From Cyanobium sp. NS01 (lineage in GTDB: Bacteria; Cyanobacteriota; Cyanobacteriia; PCC-6307; Cyanobiaceae), in NCBI RefSeq assembly GCF_014280235.1, contig NZ_CP047940.1, positions 186,001 through 250,000 on the forward strand: 64,000 bases of DNA. Reading direction: 5' to 3'. The notes beneath the pieces are model-generated. The model saw only the letters and a list, made by a program, of their open reading frames with translations, made no database searches and was not told where the DNA came from. Below, piece by piece: positions 13,508 to 36,601 of the stretch. Numbering within the stretch: position 1 is the first letter of the stretch; each line of letters starts with the position of its first letter. A program made the translations under genes and the position numbers.

Positions 13508-13512
13508 AGAAA

Positions 13513-13524
13513 TGAGTATACTCA
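13513..13524. promoter_or_regulatory. Perfect 12-bp palindrome between divergent starts
   Basis: TGAGTATACTCA is a perfect inverted repeat lying between the start of the minus-strand TPR-glycosyltransferase (GTG 13507) and the plus-strand glycosyltransferase (ATG 13529). A dyad placed in so short a divergent spacer could be an operator, but no other copy was found in the island and no regulator is adjacent. If the TTG start at 13525 is used, the palindrome is inside that coding sequence. Confidence 0.3.
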
Positions 13525-13528
13525 ATGC

Positions 13529-16199: not shown

Positions 16200-16964
16200 T
16201 TGACTCAAGCAACACCATTGCAACACGCTGACATCCATCAACCTGAGGAGTGGTTAACTGAGGATCGCCGCAAGCGCATACAGATTTGTTTTGCTGACGC
16301 AAAGACTTCTCTCGCAATATCTGGGCTCCTTCCTGCTGCGATCCGCGGCTGGATACGTCAAGAGGTGGCTGCAGAGGTTGATTGGAAGATCGACGAACGA
16401 ATGCAGCTATCTGATTCACTTCTCGATGAATGGCGAAAACACAACAGCGCAACAGAGCTGGGCCTAAACGAACAAACACTTCCTAAGCACCTCACCGTGA
16501 GTGAAGGTGTGCACAGATGGTCTTCAATGCTCTGGAGTGAACAGGTAGAGGCTTTATTTTTAGCCAACAAAGAAGACTACGATCAAGCTAGCTTCTACTT
16601 GTTAAGGGTAGCCAACTTGCCTCTGGCTAAAGAACTTTATCATCGGCTCAAGTCTCGAGAAACGACCTTCCCAGAACTGAGTATGAAGTATGGAGAGGGT
16701 AAGGAAGCCCGAGCAGGGGGCCATTTTCCCCTCTGCCTGTTCAAGGATGTACCCTATTCCCTCGGACCGGCTCTCCGTACAATGACACCCAGTCACGTGG
16801 AGCCACCGATAGCCCTTGGCAGACGTTTTGCCATACTGATGCTAACAGAATATATCCCAGCAGAATACAGTCAAGACCTGCGAAGGAAGCTTCTGAAGGA
16901 TAGGTTTAATCAATGGCTTATAGACATGCAAAAGAAGGTCCTTGAGGCCCTATCGATTGACTGA
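16200..16964 (+). CDS. Parvulin-like peptidyl-prolyl isomerase / foldase associated with secretion
   Basis: 254 residues. The N-terminal 130 residues are helical and SurA-like ('LPAAIRGWIRQEVAAEVDW'). The C-terminal part fits a degenerate rotamase domain: 'ANLPLAKELYHRLKSRETTF', 'LSMKYGEGKEARAGGHFPL' and 'IALGRRFAILMLTEYIPAEY'. Proteins of this design sit next to HlyD and ABC exporter genes in cyanobacterial type I secretion and peptide-export loci. A role in folding or targeting the neighbouring RTX-like protein is therefore likely but not shown. No signal peptide is visible. The start is uncertain: the first candidate is TTG at 16200, just after the terminator, while a GAGGAG sits further in with no obvious start after it. 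Confidence 0.65.
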   Translation: MTQATPLQHADIHQPEEWLTEDRRKRIQICFADAKTSLAISGLLPAAIRGWIRQEVAAEVDWKIDERMQLSDSLLDEWRKHNSATELGLNEQTLPKHLTVSEGVHRWSSMLWSEQVEALFLANKEDYDQASFYLLRVANLPLAKELYHRLKSRETTFPELSMKYGEGKEARAGGHFPLCLFKDVPYSLGPALRTMTPSHVEPPIALGRRFAILMLTEYIPAEYSQDLRRKLLKDRFNQWLIDMQKKVLEALSID

Positions 16965-18218: not shown

Positions 18219-21188
18219 TTGACGACTCCATCTGCAATGCTTGCTGAGAAGCTTTATCCTGCTCTTCGTAGCCGTGAACCGTTTTCCCTGCTGACTAGCA
18301 ATGAACTTGATTCCTGGCTCCAAGAAGGCGAGCTGAGGGAGTTCTCAATTGGATCGATATTAGTACGACCTGATGAGCTGCCTTCACATATCTTCCTTGT
18401 CTTGGCCGGAGAAGTGAGATGTTTGGTACCCAGTGCAGCGACGAAAGATGAGATCACGCTCGCAAAGATTGGGGCCGGCACCTTGGTTGGCTGGAGCTCT
18501 CTACTACGTGGAGAATCATGTGAACATGTGATCGCATCTGAGCAGGTACGCTGCTTGGCTTTGCCTGCGAAAGCCTATATCAAGTTGTTCAAGAACAACT
18601 CGGAGTTTGAAGCCTACTTCTCTTCCTTAGTCAGTCCGCAGGAAGCTTATATCGTTGCCCTGGCCTCGGCACAGCACACTGCCAAGCGCGTGCAGGGATG
18701 GAGCGATGACCTTGCCGATCGTGCCCTGCACGCACAGGCACAGACTTGTCGGCCTGGCGAGCCCTTCGAAGCCCCCACTGGGGCTCCCGGTCTGGAGTGG
18801 TTCCTCAGCACGGCTGGTGTTCCGGAGCATGCTGTGGGGCAACACATCCTCTCTGGTGATTCCCTACCCAGTCGTTCTGGCTATCAACTTCCCTACCGGG
18901 TAATCGGGCTGCCACCATCCGATCGGTTGCCTGCGTCTGAGCAGGTGATTGCCGTCACTCCATTGTCTTCTGTAGAAACGGAACCAAGGCAGCTGGATCA
19001 ACTAGGGATCCTTGAAGCTGACCACCTCAAGGACAACGACAGATTTCCCGTCGTGCGGGGTCGGGGACAGCTAGCTGAAGCCATGGCCGTGGTCGAGATG
19101 GTCGCTCTTGAGCAGCAGGTACCGTTTCGCAATGATGCGATCCAGAAAGTGCTTGAAGATCAATTCCGCCGCGACAAGGGGATGTCCATTGAGCTCCTTG
19201 CGGGCCTATGTGAGTTGCTTGGCCTTAACACCCAGCTCGCGGAAGTGGAGAGTCGATTCATCGCAAGCATTGAAGCGCCGGCAATCTGGCTATGGGGAGG
19301 AATCCCTGTGGTATTTTTCGGGGCACGCAAGAATAAGGCGATCTTAGGTCACCCCCACAAAGGGCTGCAACGCATCAATATCTCAGATCTTGAGAATCAG
19401 CTCGGTGATCGTTTCCGCCTAGCCCTGCCTAGGCGCGTAACTGCAACCCCTACAAGCCGTTTTGGTTGGAGTTGGTTCACTCCATTACTGGGCAAATACA
19501 AAGGTGCCCTGATCATGGTATTCGTAGCCTCATTGCTGGCTCAACTCTTTGGAATCGCCATCCCCCTGCTCATTCAGCAGATCATTGACAAGGTACTGAG
19601 CCAGGGAAATCTCAGTAGCCTCAACGTGCTGGGGTCGGCGATGGTGGTGATGGCCCTATTCAGTGGGATTCTCATGGCACTACGCACATATATCTTTATC
19701 GACACTACAGATCGGATGGATCTAACTCTCGGAAGTGCGGTAATTGATCGACTACTAACTCTCCCTCTGGCCTATTTTGAAAAGCGCCCTGTTGGTGAAC
19801 TTAGTCAACGCCTTGGAGAGCTGAATAATATCCGTAACTTCCTCACGGGAACAGCACTGATCTCAGTGCTTAACCTCATCTTTGCTGTCACTTATCTCGT
19901 GGTGATGCTGCTGTATTCTCCGTTACTCACGGCAGTGTCTCTCAGCATACTTCCACTTTATTTGTTATTGGTATTTGGTGTTGCTCCGATCTACAAGAGC
20001 TTGATCCGCAAGCGAGCCATCGCCCAGGCTCGTACCCAAAGCCATCTTATTGAAGTGCTGAATGGTATTCAGACAGTTAAAGCTCAGCATTTTGAGCTAA
20101 CGGCGCGCTGGAAGTGGCAGGATCGATATCGCCACTTTATTGATGAGGGTTTCAAAAGTACTGCTCTAGGGGCAACCTCTCGTGAGATTGGCAACTTCCT
20201 GAATCAGCTCAGCGGTCTGCTGGTGCTGTGGGTTGGCATGTGGCTTGTGCTTGAAGGTGATTTCACCCTAGGCATGTTGATTGCTTTTCGAATCATCTCG
20301 TCCAACGTAACAAGCCCTCTTCTTCAACTCAGTGGACTCTATCAAGGCTTCCAAGGTGTACAGTTATCCATGGAGCGTTTAAGCGATATTCTCGATCAGA
20401 ATCCAGAGCTCAACAAAGCCGATGAAGTGGGTCAGATTTCATTGCCGCCTATTATTGGCAACATTCGCTTTGAGAATGTTAGCTTTCGGTTTAAGTCCAA
20501 GGGGCCTTATCAAGTCAACGACGTAAGCATCAATGTGCCTGCAGGCAGTTTCGTAGGGATTGTTGGGCAGAGTGGCAGCGGAAAGAGCACCTTGATGAAG
20601 CTTTTACCAAGGCTTTACGACCCAGAGCAAGGGAGGATTTTCATAGATGATTATGATATTGGCAAGGTCGACCTCTCAAGCCTTAGGCGTCAAGTTGGAA
20701 TTGTTCCTCAAGATTCACTCCTCTTTGAGGGGACTATTGCGGAGAATATCTCTCTAAACGACCCACTGGCAAGCAGTGAATCAATTATCGAAGCTGCAAC
20801 AATAGCCTGTGCTCATGACTTTATTATGAGTTTAGGCCAGGGTTATGCCACTCAGCTCACAGAGCGTGGTGGCAATCTCTCTGGAGGCCAGCGCCAACGA
20901 ATTGCCATTGCGCGCACCATCCTTTCAAATCCGCAACTTCTCGTCATGGACGAAGCAACTAGTGCGCTGGACTTTGATACTGAAAGGAGACTCTGTGCTA
21001 ATCTCCAACGTTGGGCAGCAGCACGTACAGTGTTCTTCATCACTCACCGACTAAGCACTGTGAAGTCAAGTGATTTGATTGTAGTCATGCATGATGGTCG
21101 CCTCGAGGAGCTTGGCAAGCATCAAGACTTGATGCAGAAGAAAGGAAGATATTCGGTGCTCTATCGACAGCAGGCTCACAGCGAATGA
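18219..21188 (+). CDS. ABC exporter with N-terminal cyclic-nucleotide-binding-like domain (type I secretion ATPase/permease)
   Basis: 989 residues. Residues about 20-130 form a cNMP-binding-like beta roll ('FSIGSILVRPDELPSHIFLV', 'AGTLVGWSSLL'). Residues about 280-410 resemble a C39-peptidase-like domain without a recognisable catalytic Cys ('APAIWLWGGIPVVFF'). Residues 425-700 are a six-helix ABC membrane domain, and 745-985 are the ATPase: Walker A 'GIVGQSGSGKSTLMK' (Lys789), Q-loop 'VGIVPQDSLLFEGT', signature 'LSGGQRQRIAIAR', Walker B 'LLVMDEATSALD'. The architecture is like HetC and other cyanobacterial exporters. A dead peptidase domain suggests an uncleaved C-terminal signal, fitting the RTX-like substrate. 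The TTG start has AGGA 6 bases upstream. Its stop overlaps the next gene as ATGA. Confidence 0.9.
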   Translation: MTTPSAMLAEKLYPALRSREPFSLLTSNELDSWLQEGELREFSIGSILVRPDELPSHIFLVLAGEVRCLVPSAATKDEITLAKIGAGTLVGWSSLLRGESCEHVIASEQVRCLALPAKAYIKLFKNNSEFEAYFSSLVSPQEAYIVALASAQHTAKRVQGWSDDLADRALHAQAQTCRPGEPFEAPTGAPGLEWFLSTAGVPEHAVGQHILSGDSLPSRSGYQLPYRVIGLPPSDRLPASEQVIAVTPLSSVETEPRQLDQLGILEADHLKDNDRFPVVRGRGQLAEAMAVVEMVALEQQVPFRNDAIQKVLEDQFRRDKGMSIELLAGLCELLGLNTQLAEVESRFIASIEAPAIWLWGGIPVVFFGARKNKAILGHPHKGLQRINISDLENQLGDRFRLALPRRVTATPTSRFGWSWFTPLLGKYKGALIMVFVASLLAQLFGIAIPLLIQQIIDKVLSQGNLSSLNVLGSAMVVMALFSGILMALRTYIFIDTTDRMDLTLGSAVIDRLLTLPLAYFEKRPVGELSQRLGELNNIRNFLTGTALISVLNLIFAVTYLVVMLLYSPLLTAVSLSILPLYLLLVFGVAPIYKSLIRKRAIAQARTQSHLIEVLNGIQTVKAQHFELTARWKWQDRYRHFIDEGFKSTALGATSREIGNFLNQLSGLLVLWVGMWLVLEGDFTLGMLIAFRIISSNVTSPLLQLSGLYQGFQGVQLSMERLSDILDQNPELNKADEVGQISLPPIIGNIRFENVSFRFKSKGPYQVNDVSINVPAGSFVGIVGQSGSGKSTLMKLLPRLYDPEQGRIFIDDYDIGKVDLSSLRRQVGIVPQDSLLFEGTIAENISLNDPLASSESIIEAATIACAHDFIMSLGQGYATQLTERGGNLSGGQRQRIAIARTILSNPQLLVMDEATSALDFDTERRLCANLQRWAAARTVFFITHRLSTVKSSDLIVVMHDGRLEELGKHQDLMQKKGRYSVLYRQQAHSE

Positions 21189-22342: not shown

Positions 22343-23560
22343 CTACTGCTGTCGAATGCTTCTTACGGCATCAAGTTGATCAACTAGCAGGTCACTGAGC
22401 AGGCTTATCACTGGCTTATCACGTAGTTTCAGATTTGTCGTAACTGCCATGCCGCTGCGAAGTGGGATCTTGATTCCACGTGTTTCAAGATAGGGACGTT
22501 TAAGGCTGATGCGCGCTGGAAATCTGTAGATAGGGTTGGTCTCGTCGGGGGGCAATGCATCGGCTCCAATATCTTCTACTATGCCAGGTACATCACCATA
22601 GCGAGCGAAGGGGAAGGCGTCGATCCGCACTCTTGCCTCTTGGCCTGGCTTGACAAAGCCGATGTCCATGTTGGGAATGAACACGCGGGCATGTAGGGAA
22701 TCCTGAGGAACAAGTGTCAGGATCGTTTCCCCTGGCTGAAGCACACTCTGAGGACGGACTTTAGGATCAAAGACAATTCCAGCCACTGGGGCCTCTACAT
22801 TCTGGTATTGTAGTTGCAGATTAGCTTTCACCAAGCTATTGCGCATTTGACTAATATTCCTTTCGCTCTCCAGTCTCAGCTGCGTAGCCTGAAAGGTCAA
22901 TTGCTGCAGCTCTTCGTCAAGCTGATTGAGTTGTGCTTGCAACTCAAGCAGCTCATCAGTCTGCTCAAGGAATGGGAGCCTTGTGTACGCTCCACTTTCC
23001 ACCAGGCCCCGTAGTGAATCCAGGATCTCAGTCTTGGTCTTAATCTTTGTCTCTAAAACAACTCTTTGACCCTTGATAACCTCTGTCCGGCTGACGAATG
23101 TTGCCAGTTGCTGCTCAAGCTCTGATGTCTCAAGTGAGATCATGAGAGTCAGAGTTTCTGCTTCCTTAGCAGCCGCTGTGGTGTCATATTTAAGCAGTAA
23201 CTTGCCTTTTGGAACAAACTCTCCATCTTTAAAGAACACCTGGGCCACTTGGCCCCCAGATGGGGTCATCACATCCGTAGATCCCTCCACAGCATTCAGC
23301 TGGCCCTGCACCGTGACGACTTCATCAATCCGAAAGAGAAAACCACCGACGACCGCAATCGTGCCCAGAGCGGTGAACACCACAGCAAGGCTTTTAGCCC
23401 ACACGGGTGACTGACGCAGCACCAGCGATCGATTTTTTGCCAGCCACTCGTTGGCCGCATCGCCCAAGGCACCGGTTGATTGGCCCTTTTTGAGCTCACC
23501 TCTCTCCGAGGTCACCCGAGGTCTTGGGGGAAGCTGCTTCTTGCTGCTGGTTCTGGGCAT
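22343..23560 (-). CDS. HlyD-family membrane fusion protein (type I secretion adaptor)
   Basis: About 405 residues. A cytoplasmic N-terminus precedes one membrane span ('LAVVFTALGTIAVVGGFLF', near residue 65). Then come the first half of a lipoyl-like domain ('VEGSTDVMTPSGGQVAQVFF'), a long alpha-helical hairpin (residues about 140-250) and the second half ('APVAGIVFDPKVR'). A beta-barrel region with 'ARVRIDAFPFARYG' and 'PLRSGMAVTTNLKL' follows. It bridges the inner-membrane ABC exporter to an outer-membrane channel. ATG at 23560 ('MPRTSSKKQ') is preferred because the upstream start at 23602 overlaps the divergent gene. No TolC gene is in the window. Confidence 0.92.
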   Translation of the reverse strand: MPRTSSKKQLPPRPRVTSERGELKKGQSTGALGDAANEWLAKNRSLVLRQSPVWAKSLAVVFTALGTIAVVGGFLFRIDEVVTVQGQLNAVEGSTDVMTPSGGQVAQVFFKDGEFVPKGKLLLKYDTTAAAKEAETLTLMISLETSELEQQLATFVSRTEVIKGQRVVLETKIKTKTEILDSLRGLVESGAYTRLPFLEQTDELLELQAQLNQLDEELQQLTFQATQLRLESERNISQMRNSLVKANLQLQYQNVEAPVAGIVFDPKVRPQSVLQPGETILTLVPQDSLHARVFIPNMDIGFVKPGQEARVRIDAFPFARYGDVPGIVEDIGADALPPDETNPIYRFPARISLKRPYLETRGIKIPLRSGMAVTTNLKLRDKPVISLLSDLLVDQLDAVRSIRQQ

Positions 23561-23600
23561 TGCACCTGCCAGGATACTCCTCAATCGTAGGGCCTGAGCC

Positions 23601-25157
23601 ATGCAGTCGTTTTCTCATGCCCTGGGTGCCGCTGGTGATGCTCAACTGGTGCTGGTGAGCGGTGCTCCCCGCACGGGAATCGCCGCCCTGGCTGGCCAGC
23701 TTGCTCAACACCCCGATGCCCTTCTCGTGGATGGTACAAACACCCAGGCTCTGGTCTGGTTGTCGTGTCTGATTGATGAACCTGATCACCTGGAATCTCT
23801 GCAGCTGGAGATGGAAGCACAGCTGCGTGAGATCCATGGAGCCATTCCAGCTCAAGCACCAACACACCTGATCTTGCCAGTTCAGGGCCTTATCGCGGAT
23901 CCGGTGCTGCAAGACAAGTTACTGGTTTCAAACCTTTCCGGTCGTATGCGTCTGCTGCTCACCCAACGAGGTCGCAATGATACCATGGCTTCCTTAGCCC
24001 GGTTTCCCCATCTCCAGCCGGATCTGCCCGATCCACACCACCATCAGGGTGCTTATCTGGTGGCAGCAGATCAACTGCTGACTGAGGCAAGGGCTCAGGT
24101 CAACCACCTCCAGAGCCAATGGGCCAGCGCCGGACTCACCTGGTTTTTGGTGAACTTTGAAGCACTCACCAGTAACCCTGATCTGCGACTGTCTCAGCTG
24201 CGAAAGCAGCTCGGATTGCGGCACCTGGAATCTGAAGAGAGACAGCCAAGGCGTAGGGGCATCAGCCTCAGTGTGTGCTGCAGGGAACGCAAAATCGATG
24301 CCTCTAGCGTGGGGCGCTGGCAGCGTCAGTTAGACATCCAAATGGCAAGCTCCGAGGATATAACCAGCAGTGCACCCCTCACCCCCGGAGAACCCAACCA
24401 GCCTCCCGTGATCCTCACAGGGCGTGGGGGAAGCGGCACCCGGCTGCTCGCTGAAGTGTGTATGGGTTTCGGGCTCCATCTCGGCGACAGCCTGAACCGC
24501 AGTCTGGATTCCTTGCAGTGGGTAGATTTGATCTACGAAGCCGTGCTGACCAACCTGGCTGGCCACGCCAACCCTTGGCGCGGCAGCTGGGCCGCGGAAC
24601 TTCGGAACCGCGCACGCTGGCACAGATCAGCACACACCCCCCTAGACCAGCCCTGGGGCTTCAAGCTTCCCGAGGCCATGCTGGTCGGACAGGAATTGAT
24701 GGAGGCCTGGCCTAAGGCAAAGCTTGTGCACTTGGTGCGTCACCCCCTCGATGTGTGCTTACGGCGTACTCACATGACATCGCGTACCACAAATCCAATT
24801 GGTCGCGCCACACTGGGAGCGGCCTACCGGGCCCTCGGCCGCAATTTAGATCCCCAGATTGACCCTCCTCACTGGCGCAATGCCGTGAGTTGGTGGTTCC
24901 AGCTGTCGCGCATGCAGAGCTACAAGCATCGATCTGGTCATCGGATCCTGGAAGTGCGCTACGAGGATCTCTGTGACCACACCACCGCAGCCGCAGCCAA
25001 GCTAGCTCGAGAGCTAAATCTCCAGACAAGCTCGATCCAACTCCAGGTGGACGCCGAGCGCCGCAGGCGATGGGAGCCTGACGATCCCCACATTGCGGAG
25101 ATCTGGGACCTTTGTGGCCCCATTGCCAGTCTATATGGATATACACTCGAATCATAG
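23601..25157 (+). CDS. Tandem sulfotransferase-like protein (two P-loop domains)
   Basis: 518 residues with two separate P-loops. The first is 'QLVLVSGAPRTGIAALAGQL' near residue 14, in a domain with 'LSGRMRLLLTQRGRNDTMAS' and 'WFLVNFEALTSNPDLRLSQL'. The second is 'PPVILTGRGGSGTRLLAEVC' near residue 274, in a domain with 'AKLVHLVRHPLDVCLRR' (3'-phosphate motif) and 'RILEVRYEDLCDHTTAA'. Both halves have the order of PAPS-dependent sulfotransferases. The first P-loop lacks the usual Ser/Thr after the 'TG' and may be non-catalytic. It is divergent from hlyD, with 40 bp between starts. Higher GC than its neighbours. Substrate unknown. Confidence 0.72.
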   Translation: MQSFSHALGAAGDAQLVLVSGAPRTGIAALAGQLAQHPDALLVDGTNTQALVWLSCLIDEPDHLESLQLEMEAQLREIHGAIPAQAPTHLILPVQGLIADPVLQDKLLVSNLSGRMRLLLTQRGRNDTMASLARFPHLQPDLPDPHHHQGAYLVAADQLLTEARAQVNHLQSQWASAGLTWFLVNFEALTSNPDLRLSQLRKQLGLRHLESEERQPRRRGISLSVCCRERKIDASSVGRWQRQLDIQMASSEDITSSAPLTPGEPNQPPVILTGRGGSGTRLLAEVCMGFGLHLGDSLNRSLDSLQWVDLIYEAVLTNLAGHANPWRGSWAAELRNRARWHRSAHTPLDQPWGFKLPEAMLVGQELMEAWPKAKLVHLVRHPLDVCLRRTHMTSRTTNPIGRATLGAAYRALGRNLDPQIDPPHWRNAVSWWFQLSRMQSYKHRSGHRILEVRYEDLCDHTTAAAAKLARELNLQTSSIQLQVDAERRRRWEPDDPHIAEIWDLCGPIASLYGYTLES

Positions 25158-26773: not shown

Positions 26774-26919
26774 TGGTGACTCGCGAGACCGCTTGCTAGA
26801 GTTTCCACAAAGAGCATCCCTCAGCTCGCCTACGCCTCACGAAAGTTTGACGCCTGTGCGCTAGCGGAGTGAGCTGCATAACACATGGCTCCTGCTAAGC
26901 CATTTCCCCTTCTTTGTGG

Positions 26920-27885
26920 ATGTACCCCCAACTCCTCCTGATTACCCAATTGCATCGCAGCGGGGGTACTTTATTTTCGCAGCTTTTAGATGGCCACTCT
27001 GGTATTCAGGCCCACCCGCACGAACTGTTCATCGGGAAGCCCCAGAAGTGGAATTGGCCCAAGCTAGCTAAACTCCTCAACTCACCTGAGCCACTCTTTG
27101 AATCGCTTCAGGAAGACAAGATTGCTGCCATCGGCAGGCAGGGTGTCTTTATCAAGCCAGGCAGCAATCTCGAGGCTGGCAAGCAAGATGTTTCGTTTAC
27201 CTACAGTCTCACGGAGCACCGCCAACGGTTCGTAGAGCTCTACTCCAAAGCTCCAGTGAAGACGCAGCGCTTTGCCATCCAGATCTATTTCCATACTTTC
27301 TTCGCCTCATGGCCTGAGCATCACAGCTCGGGCCATGAGCGTTATATGTCTTGCTTTTTGCCTCACCTCATCCTGCATTCCGATTCCCTGCAGCGATTAT
27401 TCGCTGATTTTCCGGACGTCATGTTGGTGAGTCTCCTGAGGCGTCCAGACTCCTGGATCGCCTCTCTAGTGAATCATATTTCACTCAGCCTTGCTGATAC
27501 TGAGACTGTACAGAAGCATCTTGAGCGTTGGCGGTTCTCTGTCAAAGCCATCCTGTCTTTGCATCGGAATCCAGCCACCTATAGCTTCACCACCACCTAC
27601 GAAGCTCTCGTATCTGATCCCAGAGTAGAGCTTCAACGCTTCTGCGCCTTGGCTGGCCTTCCCTTTGAACCCATCATGCTCACTCCAACGGTCGGCGGAT
27701 GTCCCGTGCTGCCCAATTCCAGTTACAGCCGCGCTGAACACGGAGTGAACCAAGCTTCCCTGCGGCCACAGCAGCCCATGCCAACCTCTGTCCAGCAGAT
27801 CCTGCAGGAAGTCTACCTTCCGGTCTATGTCCAAGCCGTCACCCAGCTCGGCATGGATCCCTTAGACCTCGACCTTGCCTCCTGA
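26920..27885 (+). CDS. Sulfotransferase-like protein
   Basis: About 321 residues from ATG 26920 ('MYPQLLLITQLHRSGGTLFS'); a TTG two codons upstream is less likely. 'LHRSGGTLFSQLLDGH' is the 5'-phosphosulfate loop, and 'VMLVSLLRRPDSWIASLVNH' is the 3'-phosphate strand with Arg and Ser. 'FTTTYEALVSDPRVELQRFC' matches the 'xxYExLxxxPxxxxxxL' motif of the family. It is 5 bp upstream of the sialidase-like gene and heads a six-gene run (26920-32714) of coupled or overlapping genes. Substrate unknown. Confidence 0.75.
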   Translation: MYPQLLLITQLHRSGGTLFSQLLDGHSGIQAHPHELFIGKPQKWNWPKLAKLLNSPEPLFESLQEDKIAAIGRQGVFIKPGSNLEAGKQDVSFTYSLTEHRQRFVELYSKAPVKTQRFAIQIYFHTFFASWPEHHSSGHERYMSCFLPHLILHSDSLQRLFADFPDVMLVSLLRRPDSWIASLVNHISLSLADTETVQKHLERWRFSVKAILSLHRNPATYSFTTTYEALVSDPRVELQRFCALAGLPFEPIMLTPTVGGCPVLPNSSYSRAEHGVNQASLRPQQPMPTSVQQILQEVYLPVYVQAVTQLGMDPLDLDLAS

Positions 27886-27890
27886 CTCGC

Positions 27891-29057
27891 TTGGAGCATC
27901 CTCGAGTCCATGATCTCAACGCTCGTTTGAGCTGGGGTCGTCTTTATCGTTCGCCTTTCGTCTCGGGATTGTGGGCCCTGCTCGAGCCAGCTGGTCTCCA
28001 GAACCACGCAGCTCAGCTGGCCTGGCTTACCCCTGGCACCCTGGCCTGCGTCTGGATGGCGGGAGATCGAGAAGGAACTGCGGGAATGAGCGTCTACCTC
28101 TCCGTCCTCCGTCCTCGATCATCCTCGTGGAGTTCTCCTCGGCTGATTTCCCAGGATCCCATCCGTTCAGAACAGAATCCTCTGCTGTTCATAGCCGAGG
28201 GGCAACTGAGGCTGATTCATACCGCCCAGCATTGCCGCAGGCCTTCTGATCCCGCAGAGCCTGATCGTCCCTTCTCCATGCAGTGGACGGCGAGCCTGCG
28301 CGTTCAGTCGCGCGCCCCCCGCGGCCGTCGCTGGTGCCCGGCCGCCGATCTCATCGATCAGCCCGCCTTCTGCCGCCATCAGCCCCATCGCCGCCCCGAT
28401 GGGCGCTGGCTGCTGCCGATCTACCGTTGCCTGGAGCAGGGCCAGGCCTTCGGCTCTGATCTCTCCGAGGTGCTCCTGTTGGAGCCGGATGGCCGGTTCA
28501 GCGGCACTGTCGTGCCCGTACCCGAAAGCACCGGCCGGGTGCATGGATCGATCGTGGCCAGTGCCGATGGAGCCTCCCTGCTTCAGTTCTTCCGCAGCCG
28601 GCTGGCCGATCGCATCTACTGCTCCAGGAGCACGGCCGATGGCCTGTGCTGGAGCGCACCCCAACCCACCAGCCTGCCCAACAACAACAGCTCGATTCAG
28701 GCCCTGCGGCTTGCCAGCGGCCGGCTGGCGATGATCTTCAACCGTTGCTCGGAGGAAACGGAGCCGGCAGCGCCGGAGCGCTGGGGGCAAGCGCGATGGG
28801 GATGCCCACGCTGGCCACTCACTGTGGCTCTCAGCAACGACGACGGCCACAGCTGGCCCTGGATGCGGGATATCGACTGCGGTGAGGGTTTCTGTGGCGA
28901 GGCCAACCGGCTCTGTAATACAAATGCAGCCTACCCAACGATTGTGGAGGGCCAGCCAGGCGAACTCCACATCGCCTATTCCTGGGGCGATCGGTTTGCC
29001 ATCCGCTACCTGTGCCTCTCCGAGCAGGCGATCCTCGGCGTGCAGGAGCCTGCATGA
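27891..29057 (+). CDS. Sialidase-like (BNR-type six-bladed propeller) protein
   Basis: 388 residues without a clear signal peptide. It resembles the bacterial exo-alpha-sialidase-like family: 'PDGRWLLPIYRCLEQGQAFG', 'GRVHGSIVASADGASLLQFF', 'NNNSSIQALRLASGRLAMIF', 'LTVALSNDDGHSWPW' (Asp-box-like) and 'AAYPTIVEGQPGELHIAYSW'. In true sialidases an Arg triad binds the carboxylate and a Tyr/Glu pair is catalytic; I cannot assign these confidently. The position among sulfotransferases and glycosyltransferases suggests a glycan-trimming or glycan-binding role. The start used is TTG 27891, and it ends as ATGA with the next gene. Confidence 0.68.
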   Translation: MEHPRVHDLNARLSWGRLYRSPFVSGLWALLEPAGLQNHAAQLAWLTPGTLACVWMAGDREGTAGMSVYLSVLRPRSSSWSSPRLISQDPIRSEQNPLLFIAEGQLRLIHTAQHCRRPSDPAEPDRPFSMQWTASLRVQSRAPRGRRWCPAADLIDQPAFCRHQPHRRPDGRWLLPIYRCLEQGQAFGSDLSEVLLLEPDGRFSGTVVPVPESTGRVHGSIVASADGASLLQFFRSRLADRIYCSRSTADGLCWSAPQPTSLPNNNSSIQALRLASGRLAMIFNRCSEETEPAAPERWGQARWGCPRWPLTVALSNDDGHSWPWMRDIDCGEGFCGEANRLCNTNAAYPTIVEGQPGELHIAYSWGDRFAIRYLCLSEQAILGVQEPA

Positions 29058-30553
29058 ACTTCCTGTCCAGGTCCTCCGAAGGGGTGTTGCTGGTGGCCAC
29101 AGGGCGCCGCCACCGTAACGAAGCCATCACAGCCGTTCCCCGGATCCGCCCCTGGCTCGGGGGCAGACCGCTGTGGCTGCTGACCGACAAACCCGCTCGC
29201 GTTCCGGCGGCTGCCTTCGATCGGGTCATGCCCCATCCCGATCCGCGCCGGACCTATCGCGACAAGATCACGGCCCTCCTCCGGCTGCCCTTTCGTCGCA
29301 CCCTCTTCCTCGACAGCGACGTTGAGCTGCTGGCCCCGCTTGACGATGTGTTCAAGCTGCTGGACGTGGTGGACCTGGTGGGATGCCATGCTCCGGTGCG
29401 CAGTTTCCAGTGGCGTGATCCCCAGGTGCCTGAGGGTGTCTGTGAGCTCAACAGCGGCGTTCTGGCCCTCCGCAGCGGACGGGCCCAGCACCGACTGGTG
29501 CGACGCTGGCTCACCACCTACGATGAAGTAGGCGTGGAGGTTGACCAGGCCGCCCTGCGTTCAGCTCTCTGGTGGGCCATGCAGCGCGGCCTGCGCAGCT
29601 GGGTGCTACCACCGGAATACAACCTGCGCACCACCAAACCCTGGATCGCCGGCGCGGGAATGGCCGTGAAGGTGGTGCATGGCCGCATCCCTGACAGCAT
29701 GCGCGCGCCCCTCGCCGGCTATCTCAACAAAGACCCCAGCCGCTTCCGGGCCAGCAGCGCCTTCCCCACTGGCCAGAACACCGCTGTGGCGCCCTGGCCC
29801 CCAGTTGCCCCCCAGCGCCTCTTTGTCCTCGGGGCCGGGCGCAGCGGCACCAGCCTCCTGGCGGGGCTGTTCCGGAGGAGCGGCCTGTTCATGGGTGAGG
29901 CCTCCCCCTACAAACCCCGTGCGGCCAACCCCTTGGGCTTCTTTGAAGACAGGGAAGTGAACGCCATCAATGAAGACCTCCTGGGCCCGCTGGTGCCCCC
30001 ACCGCTTGGGGAAGGGCAACGTTGGCTGGCAAGCCTGCCCAGCTCGGCCCGGGTGGCGATCACGCCCGAGCTACGTCGCCGCATCCGCACGCTCCTGTCA
30101 CGCGGCCCCTTCTGCTTCAAGGATCCTCGCTTCTGCTACACCCTGGATGCTTGGATCCAGGAGCTCCCGGAGCAGGAGCGTGATCAGGTGCAGTGTCTCT
30201 GTGTGTTTCGCCATCCCTCGGTGGTGGTGGCGAGCATATTGAAGGAAATTGGCTCGGCCCCCTATCTCGAGGGTCTGCAGCTCACCGCAGAGCAGGTCCT
30301 GCAGGTCTGGGAGGCCCACTACCAGGCCGTGCTCAAGCGACAACGGAGCCAGGGGCGGTGGCTGTTCATCCACTACGAGGAGTTGCTGCAGCCCACGGGG
30401 CTGGCTCGGCTGGAGGCCTTCACGGGCCTGGAGCTCGACCACAGCATCGTTGACCTCAGCCTGCGTCGCAGTGAAGCCCATATTGAGGCCACGCCGACTT
30501 CCCTGAGGTTGTACCGAACCCTGCTGGATCTGGCCAAGTGCGAAGAGCCATGA
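29054..30553 (+). CDS. Bifunctional glycosyltransferase (GT8-like)-sulfotransferase fusion
   Basis: 499 residues from ATG 29054. Residues 1-250 read as a GT-A enzyme: 'TYRDKITALLRLPFRRTLFL' leads into 'DSDVELL', the metal-binding DxD, then 'CELNSGVLALRSGRA' and 'VEVDQAALRSALWW', as in GT8-type enzymes. Residues about 255-499 are a sulfotransferase: P-loop 'LFVLGAGRSGTSLLAGLF', 'NPLGFFEDREVNAINE', 'CLCVFRHPSVVVASILKE' and 'WLFIHYEELLQP'. One chain could thus add a sugar and sulfate it or its neighbour. It overlaps the previous and next genes by 4 bp each (ATGA). Confidence 0.82.
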   Translation: MNFLSRSSEGVLLVATGRRHRNEAITAVPRIRPWLGGRPLWLLTDKPARVPAAAFDRVMPHPDPRRTYRDKITALLRLPFRRTLFLDSDVELLAPLDDVFKLLDVVDLVGCHAPVRSFQWRDPQVPEGVCELNSGVLALRSGRAQHRLVRRWLTTYDEVGVEVDQAALRSALWWAMQRGLRSWVLPPEYNLRTTKPWIAGAGMAVKVVHGRIPDSMRAPLAGYLNKDPSRFRASSAFPTGQNTAVAPWPPVAPQRLFVLGAGRSGTSLLAGLFRRSGLFMGEASPYKPRAANPLGFFEDREVNAINEDLLGPLVPPPLGEGQRWLASLPSSARVAITPELRRRIRTLLSRGPFCFKDPRFCYTLDAWIQELPEQERDQVQCLCVFRHPSVVVASILKEIGSAPYLEGLQLTAEQVLQVWEAHYQAVLKRQRSQGRWLFIHYEELLQPTGLARLEAFTGLELDHSIVDLSLRRSEAHIEATPTSLRLYRTLLDLAKCEEP

Positions 30554-31188
30554 GCCGAGCCAAAGTGTTTGGCATCGGCCTGAACAAGACCGGCACCACA
30601 ACGCTGGGGGTCTGTCTCAGCCGCCTTGGGTATCGGCACTGCAGCTTCGATCTCAGCCTGCTGGAGCAAGTTCGTCATGGTGACTTGAAAGGATTGCGAG
30701 CTGTGGTGGATCGTCACGACTCCTTCGAAGACTGGCCCTACCCGATGGTGTTCGAGCAGCTCGACCACCTCTATCCAGGCAGTCGGTTCATCCTCACCAG
30801 GCGACGCTCAGCACGGGCTTGGCTTCGAAGCCTCCAGGAGCACAGCCTGCGCACCGATCCCGCCATCGGCTCCCGCTCCCGCACCCTGGCCTACGGCTGG
30901 CCCTATCCCCAGCTGAATCCACGTGCCCACCTGAGCCTCTATCGGGCCCACCTCCTCCGGGTGCGTCATTACTTTCGGCAGCGTCCCCAAGACCTGCTGG
31001 AGGTGTGCTGGGAGGAGCAGGCCAGCTGGGCTCCACTCTGCTCCTTTCTCGGGCAGCCACTGCCGGGGGTACCGTTTCCGCACGCCAACCCTGGCTGCTG
31101 CGGCAGTAGGCAGCGACTGCTGCATAATCAAGAGTTAATCCGTCGGGGATTTGACGATGCGCTTGGTGATGACGTTGCTCTGCCGTGA
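30550..31188 (+). CDS. Sulfotransferase-like protein
   Basis: 212 residues from ATG 30550, which overlaps the preceding TGA. 'VFGIGLNKTGTTTLGVCLSR' is the P-loop of the 'GxxKTGTTxL' sulfotransferase subfamily, followed by 'LGYRHCSFDLSLL'. 'SRFILTRRRSARAWLRSLQE' is the 3'-phosphate motif (TRR..W..S). 'LLEVCWEEQASWAPLCSFLG' is the family's C-terminal motif, and 'PGVPFPHANP' is typical. It is one of eight sulfotransferase genes in the island. Confidence 0.8.
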   Translation: MSRAKVFGIGLNKTGTTTLGVCLSRLGYRHCSFDLSLLEQVRHGDLKGLRAVVDRHDSFEDWPYPMVFEQLDHLYPGSRFILTRRRSARAWLRSLQEHSLRTDPAIGSRSRTLAYGWPYPQLNPRAHLSLYRAHLLRVRHYFRQRPQDLLEVCWEEQASWAPLCSFLGQPLPGVPFPHANPGCCGSRQRLLHNQELIRRGFDDALGDDVALP

Positions 31189-32005
31189 CGAAGTCGATAT
31201 CATTGCCAGCACTATCCGGTTTCACCTTGATCATGGTGTCGATCATCTGATCATCACTGATAATGGCTCCGTAGATGGCACGCTAGAGACTTTGCAGGGG
31301 TTTCTACCTAGCGGGAGAATGACTCTGCTTCAGGAACCTCGACATGACCACAACCAGGCCGTGTGGGTCACCCGGATGGCCCGCATGGCCGCCACAGAGT
31401 TGAATGCCGATTGGCTGATTCATGGCGACGCTGACGAATTCTGGTGGCCAGCCTGCGGGAATCTAAAGGCGGAATTGCAATGCGTACCAGCCGAATGGAA
31501 TGCTGTGCACATTGAACGCCGTAATTTCCTGCCTCCACCTCAGCGAGCAGACAGCGCCGAACCAGTTCCATTCTACAAGCTTCAGCTAATCCGGGAGCGC
31601 CAGTCTCTGAACTCCCAGGGATTGCCCTTGCCAGGCAAGGTGTGTCACCGTGCCCACCCTGAGGCGGAAGTCAGTGACGGCAATCATAGCGTTAGCCTTG
31701 CTGGAGAGTTTGTACATGCGCCGTTAGTCAAAGACATCGAGATCTTGCACTTTCCCACTCGTAGCTACGATCAGTTCGCCCGCAAGATTCGCCAGGGCAC
31801 CGAAGCACTAATGCGCAATACCCGTATTGCCGTGGAAGTAGGAAGCACTTGGCGCCACGTTTACGAGGAATACCTACAGCGAGGTCGCCTAGAGGATTAT
31901 TATCATAAGCTGCAGATGTGCCAACAGGATCGGGAGGCCCTCTTAAGCACTGGTGCTCTGATTGTCGACGATCGCTTGTGTCGGGCTCTCCAACGTGACC
32001 GCTGA
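31157..32005 (+). CDS. Glycosyltransferase, GT2-like (GT-A fold)
   Basis: About 282 residues from ATG 31157. 'LLCRDEVDIIASTIRFHLDH' and 'LIITDNGSVDGTLETLQGF' are the N-terminal nucleotide-binding motifs of the Glyco_tranf_2_4 group, and 'DWLIHGDADEFWWP' contains the metal-binding DADE. 'VLHFPTRSYDQFARKI'-type wording near residue 195 ('LHFPTRSYDQFARKIRQGTE') is usual in this group. The start lies within the last 32 bases of the upstream sulfotransferase gene. Here base composition drops again to the low-GC type. Confidence 0.82.
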   Translation: MRLVMTLLCRDEVDIIASTIRFHLDHGVDHLIITDNGSVDGTLETLQGFLPSGRMTLLQEPRHDHNQAVWVTRMARMAATELNADWLIHGDADEFWWPACGNLKAELQCVPAEWNAVHIERRNFLPPPQRADSAEPVPFYKLQLIRERQSLNSQGLPLPGKVCHRAHPEAEVSDGNHSVSLAGEFVHAPLVKDIEILHFPTRSYDQFARKIRQGTEALMRNTRIAVEVGSTWRHVYEEYLQRGRLEDYYHKLQMCQQDREALLSTGALIVDDRLCRALQRDR

Positions 32006-32714
32006 ATCGCGAGCCATTGCCAAAGTGGCCGTAATCACCCCTTACCACCGCGAGGGCTTGGAGCTATTAGAGCAGTGCCACCGTAGCGTGAAAGCCCAAA
32101 CCATGGCCTGCCGGCATGTGCTGGTGGCCGATGGACATCCGCAGCCTGAACTGCAGGACTGGGGAATCGATCATGTGTTGCTGCCCACCAGCCATGACGA
32201 CATCGGCTCCACGCCGCGGCTGATCGGCAGCTATCACGCCATCGGGCTTGGTGTGGATGCCGTGGCGTTCCTGGATGCCGATAATTGGTATGAGCCCCAT
32301 CACATCGAGCAGATGATGGTTTGCCGTGAGCAGAGTGGTGCTGCCTTTGTGTCGTCATCTCGCCTGCTGTGCAGATTGGACGGATCGCCCATTGGTCCTT
32401 GTCCCATCACGGATCCTGACTGCTTCATCGATACCAGTTGCATGCTTTTCGGCCGTGAGGCATTTCATCTCCTACATCACTGGGCTCTGATGCCACCCTA
32501 CGCTCACTTGATTGGAGACCGCGTGATGCTTCATCATGTTCGTGAATCTGGCCTTATCCGGCACCATCTCAATGATCCCAGTGTGTGCTATCGCTGCGGC
32601 AAGGAGGGCCTCTACCGTCAAATGGGTGAGGTGATCCCACCGGGCGTGCAACCAATGCCCAACTATGAAGCTGCCTTTCGCCAATGGCAGCAGGACGGCT
32701 ACCCCCCTCTTTAA
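31995..32714 (+). CDS. Glycosyltransferase, GT2-like
   Basis: About 239 residues if GTG 31995 is the start ('TAESRAIAKVAVITPYHRE'), overlapping the previous gene by 11 bp. 'VAVITPYHREGLELLEQCHR' and 'HVLVADGHPQP' form the N-terminal Rossmann-like motifs. 'VDAVAFLDADNWYEPHHIEQ' holds the DAD metal site, and 'CYRCGKEGLYRQMGEVIPPG' is near the C-terminus. It is a small GT-A enzyme for surface-glycan assembly; donor and acceptor unknown. Confidence 0.8.
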   Translation: MTAESRAIAKVAVITPYHREGLELLEQCHRSVKAQTMACRHVLVADGHPQPELQDWGIDHVLLPTSHDDIGSTPRLIGSYHAIGLGVDAVAFLDADNWYEPHHIEQMMVCREQSGAAFVSSSRLLCRLDGSPIGPCPITDPDCFIDTSCMLFGREAFHLLHHWALMPPYAHLIGDRVMLHHVRESGLIRHHLNDPSVCYRCGKEGLYRQMGEVIPPGVQPMPNYEAAFRQWQQDGYPPL

Positions 32715-33628: not shown

Positions 33629-34453
33629 TTGTCATCTCAGCCGGCCCCAGCCAACGTTAGTTTCATTGTTCCAGTTCGTAACCGTGCGGCCTTGCTGCGC
33701 ACAGCGCTTGCGAGCTGTGTTTCTCAGTCGATCGAGTCTTGGGAAGCCATTATTCTTGATGATCATAGTGATGAAGATATTGAGGGTGTTGTTGCATCAT
33801 TCAATGATTCCCGTATCCGCTACCAACGGCAGGATTCAGGTTGCTCCGGAGTTGCTGCCGCACGCGAGGCTGCAATCCGGGTTGCACACAGCGATGTATT
33901 CATCACTCTCGATGCCGACGACATCAACCATCCTCACCGCGCCCATCGTTGTGCCGAACTGCTGGCATTAACCTGTCCCCGACTTATCTATACGCGTGTG
34001 CGCTTCTTCGACCACAAGACAGGCAGCAATCGGCCGAAACCAGTCTTTCAGCCCTTTTGCGCTCAACTCTTCCGCTACTTTAATTTCATTACCAACCCCG
34101 GCACAGCCTTTAACCGCTCTGCATATGAAGCCGCAGGAGGCTACTACGACCATCACTTGTGTGTTGCCGAAGATTATGATCTCTATCTCCGGATGTCCAA
34201 GGCGGGCGTGCAGATACTTGGTCTAGATGAGGAGCATGTGAGCTATCGCAAAGGATCCGGCTCTACGACGGAAGGGCAGAGGGAAGAGATCCGAAAAGCA
34301 TTGGAATCAATTCGTGCCAAGCATGTGTTGCCGCCCTTTTCGTTTGAATCCGTGATGCAGCTCTACGCCCTGCCAGAACTCGCTCAGACTATGCTGGACA
34401 ACCCCACCACGAAAGCGCTTTGGAGCGATGACCGCTGGCAACCAGACATCTGA
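33629..34453 (+). CDS. Glycosyltransferase family 2
   Basis: 274 residues. 'VSFIVPVRNRAALLRTALAS' and 'WEAIILDDHSDEDIEGVV' are the GT2 nucleotide-binding motifs; 'VFITLDADDINHPHRAHRCA' has the DAD(D) metal site. 'NFITNPGTAFNRSAYEAAGG' and 'VAEDYDLYLRMSKAG' (ED, catalytic base region) complete the fold. The start appears to be TTG 33629. The 3' end overlaps the next gene by 26 bp. Confidence 0.9.
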   Translation: MSSQPAPANVSFIVPVRNRAALLRTALASCVSQSIESWEAIILDDHSDEDIEGVVASFNDSRIRYQRQDSGCSGVAAAREAAIRVAHSDVFITLDADDINHPHRAHRCAELLALTCPRLIYTRVRFFDHKTGSNRPKPVFQPFCAQLFRYFNFITNPGTAFNRSAYEAAGGYYDHHLCVAEDYDLYLRMSKAGVQILGLDEEHVSYRKGSGSTTEGQREEIRKALESIRAKHVLPPFSFESVMQLYALPELAQTMLDNPTTKALWSDDRWQPDI

Positions 34454-35078
34454 TCCAGCCACTCCCAGGATATTTCTGATTGGCTTCAACAAGTGCGGCA
34501 CCACATCGTTTCATAATTTCTTTCTTGCCAACGGCTTATCCTCGGTGCATTGGCGAGCCAATACCTTGGCGATGACAATCCATCGCCACCTCCAGCAGGA
34601 CCACTGGCCTGTGTTAGACGGACTCGACCACTGGACGGCATACACAGATATGATTTGTCTTCCTGGAACACCTTGGAATCATTCCAATAGTTTTGAGCAG
34701 CCGGTCATTGAGGCTTGTCGATACTTTCGTGAGCTGCATTCATCCTATCCGAATAGCTTATTTATCCTCAATAGTCGCGATCCCGAGCGATGGGTTGAAT
34801 CTCGCCTTCGGCATGATGATGGTCGTTTTGCCCAGGCCTATTTGGAGGCGATAAGGCATGAAGGTATTGACGACAAATCTGCGCTTTGTGAGCGCTGGCT
34901 TAACGACTGGGATAATCACCATTCCGACGTACTTGGCTATTTCGCGACGATTGCCACGGATCAGTTTCTTTTCTTTCAGCTTGGTAGTACGCCCCCGAGC
35001 GAGTTAGCAAGTTTTTTGGGTCGTTATTTCTCCTTACCATCTCCTCAGTTCCCCCATCATCACAAGTCGCCTGTATAG
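34428..35078 (+). CDS. Sulfotransferase-like protein
   Basis: 216 residues. 'RIFLIGFNKCGTTSFHNFFL' is a 5'-phosphosulfate loop with Lys-Cys-Gly-Thr-Thr. 'SLFILNSRDPERWVESRLRH' is the 3'-phosphate motif (SRDPERW..S). 'DQFLFFQLGSTPPSELASFL' is at the position of the family's C-terminal motif. It is similar in size and layout to the gene at 30550-31188. It probably sulfates the same surface material; target unknown. Confidence 0.78.
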   Translation: MTAGNQTSDPATPRIFLIGFNKCGTTSFHNFFLANGLSSVHWRANTLAMTIHRHLQQDHWPVLDGLDHWTAYTDMICLPGTPWNHSNSFEQPVIEACRYFRELHSSYPNSLFILNSRDPERWVESRLRHDDGRFAQAYLEAIRHEGIDDKSALCERWLNDWDNHHSDVLGYFATIATDQFLFFQLGSTPPSELASFLGRYFSLPSPQFPHHHKSPV

Positions 35079-35081
35079 TCC

Positions 35082-35765
35082 ATGCAGCTGGTGATACCTA
35101 CGCTTTGGAAGTCAAAGTCTCTTGTCGAGTCCTTGAATAGGTATCTGCAGCTCTCCTTTGTAGAGAGGATTCTCCTGGTCGACAACGCTGCCCTGGAACG
35201 TCCTGGAGATCTTGGATCTCTCGCTAAAGATGCTCGCCTTCTGATGTTGCCACAGCATCAGAATATCTATGTAAATCCCTCCTGGAATCTTGCAGTCGCC
35301 CAGATCTCTGATCCGAATACCCTTGTGGGCATCCTCAATGATGATGTCAGTTTATCACCGAAGGCTCTTGCAGAGATGAATGCTCGATCTTGGCAGGTTG
35401 GGGAGGTTGTTGGCTTGATGCCTGATTCTGACTTGACCGATCTTTCTCTGAGCAGGGAGACTGGGATCAGGCTCATCCCTGTTCACCATGATGTCAAGCA
35501 GTCGATCGGCCAGCAATTACCAGGGTTTGGATCGGCTATGTTTCTGCTTCGAGCCACCTACAGAACAATTCCCCCCTGTTTTCAGATTTGGTATGGTGAC
35601 GACTGGCTTTTACGCTCAGCCACAAGAATCTTTGGCATCCACGACCCTGGCTTGAGGCGCGAGCATCATGTCACGATGAGAGATTTGAGGAAGTCTTCCA
35701 GCTTTCGATCAATACTAAGCAATGATCGGCGTTCTGCAGCTCAGTTATTTGGATTTGAACAGTAA
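35082..35765 (+). CDS. Glycosyltransferase-like protein (GT2/GT-A)
   Basis: 227 residues starting 'MQLVIPTLWKSKSLVESLNR'. 'FVERILLVDNAALERPGD' and 'NIYVNPSWNLAVAQ' are the donor-binding motifs, and 'LVGILNDDVSLSPKALAEMN' has the NDDV metal site in place of DxD. 'GFGSAMFLLRATYRTIPP' and 'WYGDDWLLRSATR' are the acceptor/base region. Shorter than a typical GT2. Its last 25 bp overlap the tail of the convergent GT8 gene. Confidence 0.72.
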   Translation: MQLVIPTLWKSKSLVESLNRYLQLSFVERILLVDNAALERPGDLGSLAKDARLLMLPQHQNIYVNPSWNLAVAQISDPNTLVGILNDDVSLSPKALAEMNARSWQVGEVVGLMPDSDLTDLSLSRETGIRLIPVHHDVKQSIGQQLPGFGSAMFLLRATYRTIPPCFQIWYGDDWLLRSATRIFGIHDPGLRREHHVTMRDLRKSSSFRSILSNDRRSAAQLFGFEQ

Positions 35766-36601
35766 GTTGGAAGGTCTCTTGGGCTTTTCCCAATATTGAG
35801 ATGCTTGTGAATTGCCAACCAGTATGTGTCGATGGGCTCCAGGCGTTCATTGGGGAGGCGGTCTGGAAGTGCTCCGGCTGAGAGATGCGCAATCACCAGA
35901 TTACGCCGCGCATCCGCCAATGAGTTTACCATCGGATTTGCGGCTTGGTCATGCCAAGTATGGGTTGCATTCCTCTCCCTCATCCAGGATAAGTAGTTGT
36001 ACTGGAGAGGCAGATACTGTACCCGATTCTTGAGTAGTGCATTCAAGGCGCACTGCTCGCGAAATCGGCACAAGGCTGGGTTCGCTTGATAGAAATCAAC
36101 AATCTCTTTGCAACTTATACAAGCTCGCAGGTGCTCTGCGTCAAACAGCATGACGCCAGCATTGAAATAATGATAAGAGCTTTTGAGGTCGAGTATCAGC
36201 TGCCTGTCTGGCATCGGCCGCCCATGAGAGCAAGAGGCTATGGGCTTGTCAGCGGTGAGGGGGAGTTGCTCAAGTGCCGTCATGTTGGAGACGCAAAGCG
36301 TATCTGCGTCAATGCAAAGGTAGCGGCCAGGTATGGGAGCCAGTTCGAGGGCTTCTACACAGTAAAAGTAGGGTCTCACTGACGGTGGAAGTGAGTGTAA
36401 AGGGCTATTGTCTCGAATGTGAACTTGTTCTAGCTCTGAGGAAAAGGAACTCGCGATTTCTGGAAGACGTGAAAGTAGACAGTCCTTGGGGGTCACCACC
36501 ATGACCCTGGCGATCTTGTTATGGAGCAACACTGAGCAGAGAGCAATGGCCGCCAACTCCTCGTACCCTGAATCAATGGAAAAAACCAGGGTCAGCTCCA
36601 T
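35741..36601 (-). CDS. Glycosyltransferase family 8-like
   Basis: 286 residues. 'LVFSIDSGYEELAAIALCSV' is the GT8 opening; 'GRYLCIDADTLCVSNMTALE' holds the DADT metal site; 'YHYFNAGVMLFDAEHLRA' and 'FREQCALNALLKNRVQYLP' are the FNxGVMLxD and DQ(x)2LN-like motifs. The start is 7 bp after the glgP stop on the same strand, so it may be transcribed as the third gene of the xfp-glgP unit, although its composition is that of the glycan island. A role in glycogen priming is possible but unsupported by motif; surface-glycan synthesis is more likely. Confidence 0.85.
   Translation of the reverse strand: MELTLVFSIDSGYEELAAIALCSVLLHNKIARVMVVTPKDCLLSRLPEIASSFSSELEQVHIRDNSPLHSLPPSVRPYFYCVEALELAPIPGRYLCIDADTLCVSNMTALEQLPLTADKPIASCSHGRPMPDRQLILDLKSSYHYFNAGVMLFDAEHLRACISCKEIVDFYQANPALCRFREQCALNALLKNRVQYLPLQYNYLSWMRERNATHTWHDQAANPMVNSLADARRNLVIAHLSAGALPDRLPNERLEPIDTYWLAIHKHLNIGKSPRDLPTYCSNPNN

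Follow-up and report, generated by a model that had tools for sequence, protein, structure and literature searches.

P0001, a protein of 499 residues encoded in a picocyanobacterial gene island, is a fusion in which a predicted glycogenin/GT6-type glycosyltransferase (GT) domain is joined through a short linker to a predicted PAPS-type sulfotransferase (ST) domain. With moderate confidence we read it as a bifunctional, probably cytoplasmic glycan-building enzyme that would add a hexose onto a surface glycan and place a sulfate at or near that sugar; we infer the activities, the donor, the acceptor and the coupling from sequence. All positions refer to the window, the whole stretch of 64,000 nucleotides that was analyzed, and are collected in Table 1.

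One reading frame joins two intact domains

P0001 is encoded by a single open reading frame on the forward strand, running from an ATG at 29054 to a TGA at 30553 within a run of forward-strand genes that begins at 26914. Both ends overlap a neighbouring gene as ATGA: the start ATG with the stop codon of the BNR_2 gene before it, the TGA with the ATG (30550) of the Sulfotransfer_4 gene after it. The in-frame fusion of a GT to a complete sulfotransferase, which an earlier note on this DNA had claimed, was thus recovered at exactly 29054–30553, as one ORF with neither domain truncated.

The domain borders were delineated by comparison with separate-gene relatives. The segment SSxFPTGQN is common to P0001 and the free-standing GTs of Prochlorococcus, which end 13–17 residues beyond it, and the free-standing sulfotransferases of two genomes (G366 and G519) start 1–2 residues ahead of the first strand, that of a congener (G121) about 26 residues ahead. 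Free-standing GT relatives (57–59% identity) terminate at the P0001 junction and free-standing ST relatives (41–45%) start there, indicating that the fusion retains both domains whole, connected by a linker of about 12 residues.

The exact pair occurs in one of the genomes searched and codon 245 is an in-frame GTG, as would be expected if a sequencing error had erased a stop codon or if the ST domain were also made as a second protein from this codon. Such an explanation is nevertheless very unlikely, as the genome is a single contig of 2.75 Mb rated 100% complete, the reading frame and the homology are unbroken over the junction, and the third-position G+C content stays at 0.72–0.90 along the entire ORF, junction included. 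Furthermore, GTG245, the sole in-frame start-like codon near the junction, has no SD-like sequence upstream, and both ends of the ORF show the ATGA overlaps.

Table 1 Features of P0001 and of the surrounding gene island, in window coordinates.
Feature	Position	Strand	Evidence
GT/sulfotransferase fusion ORF, 499 aa (P0001)	29054..30553	+	One ORF, closed 2.75 Mb contig
Predicted GT-A glycosyltransferase domain, about residues 7–235	29072..29758	+	Homologues, PDB profile match to glycogenin, AlphaFold2 model and fold match
DxD motif D87-S88-D89	29312..29320	+	D87, D89 invariant in 11/11 rows; aligns with glycogenin DxD
Linker, residues 243–254 (~12 residues), last conserved GT segment to first sulfotransferase strand	29780..29815	+	
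Predicted sulfotransferase domain, residues 255–499 (PF13469)	29816..30550	+	Pfam, alignment, model
GRSGTS loop, 5′-PSB-type, residues 262–267	29837..29854	+	Invariant in 4/4 and 6/6 rows
R386...S394 segment, 3′-PB-type	30209..30235	+	R, S invariant in 4/4 and 6/6 rows
GT1-family glycosyltransferase	9586..10626	-	Homologue directly precedes free-standing GT in G043, G079
GT4-type glycosyltransferase	13469..14722	+	Conserved in G162/G089
RTX-like protein, probable type I secretion substrate	14804..16123	+	Weak Pfam match just below cut-off
PpiC-like protein, below Pfam cut-off	16200..16964	+	Homologue adjoins ABC gene in G162/G089
Type I secretion ABC transporter	18219..21188	+	61–63% identical in G162/G089
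HlyD-type membrane fusion protein	22343..23602	-	Pfam, homology
Sulfotransfer_3 protein, possibly two tandem P-loop units (by eye)	23601..25157	+	Pfam
Sulfotransfer_3 protein, first of forward run	26914..27885	+	Pfam
BNR_2 protein (sialidase-like propeller), overlaps fusion start	27891..29057	+	60% identical homologue L035:3116-4303 (-) near Prochlorococcus G028 free-standing GT
Sulfotransfer_4 protein, overlaps fusion stop	30550..31188	+	59% identical gene follows free-standing ST in G121
GT2-type glycosyltransferase (PF13704)	31151..32005	+	53–54% identical segment in G162, G089
GT2 glycosyltransferase	31962..32714	+	Homologues in G162, G089, G121
GT2 glycosyltransferase	33629..34453	+	Pfam, homology
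Sulfotransfer_4 protein	34428..35078	+	Conserved in G162/G089, 54–57%
Canonical Pfam GT8 protein (PF01501, 59.3 bits)	35741..36601	-	Pfam

The amino-terminal half resembles glycogenin in motifs and fold

No Pfam or NCBIfam model matched the amino-terminal half of P0001 above cut-off. Homologues covering residues 1–250 end to end were found at 17 loci in genome_contigs and additionally in family genomes, and in an alignment of P0001 with 10 of these 17 loci the residues D87, D89, N133, G135, D164, Q165, N190 and H209 were invariant in all 11 rows. The profile derived from this alignment matches glycogenin in the PDB (best E 2.4e-4), where D87/D89 and H209 align to the DxD motif and the histidine of glycogenin-2, corroborating the DxD motif previously claimed for this domain. 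The GT and ST domains were modelled separately with AlphaFold2. For the GT model (pLDDT 84, pTM 0.83) two fold matches were tied at Z 16.0, namely glycogenin-1 (3t7n; 195 aligned residues, 3.8 Å) and, on the GT6 side, a bacterial histo-blood group A synthase (4ayl; 185 aligned residues, 3.1 Å). As the profile finds glycogenin and the model matches glycogenin and GT6 equally, we assign the amino-terminal half as a predicted glycogenin/GT6-type GT-A domain. Given this profile and fold match but no match to PF01501 (Pfam GT8) up to an E-value of 1, the label 'GT8-like' used in the earlier note is appropriate in the sense of fold and motifs only, and not as strict membership of Pfam GT8.

The same type of GT domain is also located at the carboxy-terminus of other multidomain proteins (L126:4877-6217 and L133:3188-4972), whose amino-termini are weakly GrpE-like in one case and comprise an FkbM methyltransferase and TPR in the other.

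The carboxy-terminal half is a predicted sulfotransferase

Residues 256–461 match PF13469 (Sulfotransfer_3) over model positions 2–214 of 216 and score 32.8 bits, the cut-off being 27. The GRSGTS sequence at residues 262–267, which we take to be the 5′-PSB loop for PAPS, the segment KDPRF, and the pair R386/S394, presumably the 3′-PB arginine and serine for PAPS, are common to P0001 and three free-standing homologues (4/4 rows) and likewise present in five viral-contig homologues (six-row alignment including P0001). The AlphaFold2 model of this domain reached a moderate pLDDT of 78.7, and its best matches in the PDB were sulfotransferases, with mycobacterial Stf0 as the top Foldseek match (E 3.1e-4, TM 0.39–0.40) besides SULTs and the curacin ST, at generally low TM-scores of about 0.3–0.5. 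From its family match and motifs, the carboxy-terminal half is predicted to be a complete PAPS-type sulfotransferase domain.

One of the two domains might still be dead or act as a binding module, the GT-A domain for example binding a glycan or nucleotide sugar and positioning the acceptor for the ST domain. The GT domain does lie outside the Pfam families, and both activities of P0001 are sequence-based predictions; the aligned motifs of both domains, comprising DxD, NSG, DQ and His in the GT half, are however all intact and invariant among relatives, rendering a dead domain highly improbable.

Each half recurs separately, the exact pair in one genome

P0001 was searched in 13 genomes of the genus and in samples of 201 family and 386 phylum genomes, which overlap and each include the source genome. 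Any match to the protein was observed in 6/13 genus, 39/201 family and 52/386 phylum genomes, and a full-length match over both domains in the source genome alone in each of these sets. The check proposed earlier, a search for the same fusion in other genomes, therefore yielded a divided result, as the exact pair does not recur, whereas each half recurs free-standing with matching borders and other GT–ST fusions exist. With a single genome carrying the exact pair, the coupling need not have been selected for, and the fusion may be young.

The nearest GT relatives are free-standing genes of three Prochlorococcus single-cell genomes (AG-363-J23, -O16 and -B04; L065–L067, on the same contigs as L034–L036), which are 57–59% identical over the whole GT domain and share its motifs. 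Unlike P0001 they have no attached sulfotransferase; an alpha/beta hydrolase gene comes next in 3/3, and in 2/3 the GT gene lies beside a GT1 gene homologous to the one at 9586–10626 in the window. A tree of 17 GT domains places that of P0001 amid the three Prochlorococcus proteins with a support of 100/99, closer to them than to the GT domains of G162 and G089, two picocyanobacteria that share part of the surrounding cluster. Based on this placement the fused GT domain may have been exchanged.

For the ST domain, the congener G121 carries a free-standing Sulfotransfer_3 gene with 42% identity, followed by a Sulfotransfer_4 gene (59%) and, about 4 kb further on, a GT2 gene (59%), the latter two being homologous to genes downstream of P0001.

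A viral origin or exchange of the fusion was considered and rejected, since no viral fusion was found: no relatives of the GT domain were found in viral_contigs, and the ST relatives in five IMG/VR viral contigs (L134–L138; 27–35% identity, in gene-dense same-strand surroundings) are all free-standing. Searches of the phages collection gave no match to P0001, and those of plasmids three records only, each of them partial and restricted to a single domain.

Fusions of glycosyltransferases and sulfotransferases have arisen more than once

A second GT–ST fusion, P0002, is encoded in G121, a genome of the same genus (L032:4553-5875, - strand). It is the only match clearly crossing the domain border of P0001 from the GT side (P0001 residues 8–276), and its own sole border-crossing match is P0001 (residues 4–271); full-length matches to P0002 were limited to itself among the 201 family genomes and absent among the 386 phylum genomes. 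Like P0001, it comprises an amino-terminal, related GT-A domain, a short linker and a carboxy-terminal sulfotransferase. In contrast to P0001, its ST domain belongs to PF17784 (Sulfotransfer_4, 126 bits) and not to PF13469, and the GT domains are 30% identical and not sister; that of P0002 matches PF03407 (Nucleotid_trans) above cut-off with 36.9 bits and PF01501 below cut-off with 20.6 bits. A shared origin of the two fusions was rejected, as forcing their GT domains together costs 31 log units (p-AU 0.00018), for a pair set by architecture before the tree and with P0002 and some other rows forming long branches, the placement of P0002 being unsure. The GT tree thus indicates that the two fusions are of separate origin.

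Cyanobacteria commonly carry sulfotransferases fused to GTs of other families. ST-bearing frames were present at 72 loci, 36 of them with frames of at least 400 aa (P0002 counted twice, and many frames running off the fetched stretch), and nine of the 20 frames scanned from these 36 contained a GT domain, which was GT2 in L013, L014, L015, L016, L019, L021, L086 and L091 and GT1/GT4 in L028; for five of the nine the ST call derives from similarity in BLAST to the domain of P0001 and not from Pfam at 1e-5. A separate set of eight ST-bearing proteins contained GT2 domains in two (L011, L106). The GT2 or GT1/GT4 proteins with Sulfotransfer_3 (L015, L028, L086, L091, and L011 with TPR) resemble P0001 in combining GT and ST in one chain, but differ in their unrelated GT families (PF00535, PF00534), their order and their length, with ST domains about 30–38% identical. 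GT–ST multidomain proteins as such are hence already known, and what is new in P0001 is that a glycogenin-type GT is combined with Sulfotransfer_3, so that the rarity implied by the earlier note pertains to this exact pair and not to GT–ST fusions in general. In the literature, titles, abstract openings and an exact-phrase search yielded no GT–ST fusion, a statement that extends to these sources only.

Among other composite proteins, L112:844-2073 (- strand) encodes a fusion of Sulfotransfer_4 and 2OG-Fe(II) oxygenase domains; within the window, the gene at 32847–33605 may encode a 2OG-Fe(II) protein, with a match below cut-off.

The fusion of P0001 could also serve co-expression only, having arisen neutrally when a stop codon was lost within an operon, with each domain working by itself and on a different sugar or residue in one pathway. 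This would fit the occurrence of the exact pair in one genome, the separation of both genes in relatives and the several further island sulfotransferases that could act separately, whereas the independent GT–ST fusions, which differ in their GT and ST families, suggest a recurring advantage. We regard co-expression alone as possible, though on the unlikely side.

Glycan and type I secretion genes surround the fusion

The cluster spanning 9586–36601 is partly conserved in two other picocyanobacteria of the family, G162 and G089. Their homologues comprise the HlyD protein, the PpiC-like protein, the type I secretion (T1SS) ABC transporter (61–63% identity), the RTX-like protein (28–33%), the GT4 and two TPR proteins, together with the GT domain (36–40%, free-standing), the GT1, two GT2 segments, a third GT2, a Sulfotransfer_4 and the Pfam GT8 protein. 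The window genes at 17026, 21185, 23601, 25449, 26914, 27891, 30550, 32847 and 35082 were unmatched in the stretches fetched from these two genomes. In G162, a sulfatase gene adjoins the GT gene on the opposite strand.

The overlapping GT2 genes at 31151–32005 and 31962–32714 form one continuous ORF in G089 (L141:16678-18000, +) and apparently also in G162, where the ORF spans the border between two of the stretches fetched, suggesting that fusion and splitting of GT genes recurs in the island. Three proteins (17026–17997, 21185–22339 and 25449–26348 (-)) display amino-terminal P-loop motifs that appear sulfotransferase-like by eye (PPRTATT, RCAGTS, PRTGTT), with no Pfam sulfotransferase match; if real, they would increase the sulfotransferase count of the island.

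No Pfam match to Wzx, Wzy or a polysaccharide ABC exporter was obtained for the 22 of 23 island ORFs scanned (9586–36601, with 10641 left out and E-value limits varied), and the export genes among them are of the type I secretion type. The sulfated glycan may therefore be attached to the secreted RTX protein or to a polysaccharide exported by genes elsewhere. For comparison, the Xss cluster for synechan in Synechocystis PCC 6803 is described with eight GT genes, the two sulfotransferase genes xssA and xssE, and Wzx/Wzy genes, its sulfotransferase and glycosyltransferase genes being listed separately (PMC8205485). The island resembles this cluster, whose product is a sulfated glycan, in being cyanobacterial and containing several GTs and sulfotransferases, and differs from it, as described there, by the GT–ST fusion and by its type I secretion genes, Wzx/Wzy being unmatched among the ORFs scanned (PMC8205485). 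In Synechococcus, the RTX surface protein SwmA appears to be glycosylated (PMC3034196). The SwmA motility locus of strain WH8102 was considered as a counterpart of the island, an equivalence that we do not propose.

In the cluster common to the island, G162 and G089, an RTX gene and its T1SS exporter occur together with genes for GTs, for sulfotransferases and, in G162, for a sulfatase, and the scanned window ORFs gave no polysaccharide polymerase or exporter match. On these grounds the fusion could be part of a dedicated system that attaches a sulfated glycan to an RTX surface (S-layer-like) protein exported by type I secretion in picocyanobacteria. This lineage would then have enlarged the sulfation part of the system and permanently linked a single sulfation step with a single sugar transfer. 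We put this forward as a tentative and rather doubtful extension.

Proposed function and origin

As a bifunctional enzyme, P0001 would use its GT-A domain to transfer one sugar from a nucleotide sugar, probably a UDP-hexose, onto a growing surface glycan with Mn2+ held via D87, D89 and H209, and its ST domain would place PAPS-derived sulfate onto that newly added sugar or its neighbour. The fusion would raise the local concentration and fix which sugar gets sulfated. That sugar transfer and sulfation take place on the same acceptor, as the earlier note had suggested, is plausible and gains strength from the recurrence of GT–ST fusions and from the GT/sulfotransferase cluster surrounding P0001. 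The product would probably be a sulfated cell-surface glycan made by the 9.6–36.6 kb cluster.

Because G121 carries an unfused Sulfotransfer_3–Sulfotransfer_4 order homologous to the genes here, we propose that a GT gene like the free-standing one of Prochlorococcus arrived upstream of such a pair. Subsequent loss of the GT stop codon would then have tied sulfation to one particular sugar, an order of events that we infer.

Sequence tells hardly anything about which acceptor a bacterial sulfotransferase uses, and a sulfotransferase domain fused to a GT provides a direct and testable link between sulfate and sugar, so that P0001 offers a helpful hint on this specificity. Beyond a single curiosity, the repeated GT–ST fusions represent a pattern usable for prediction, and the island would serve as a compact system for sulfated surface glycans in picocyanobacteria.
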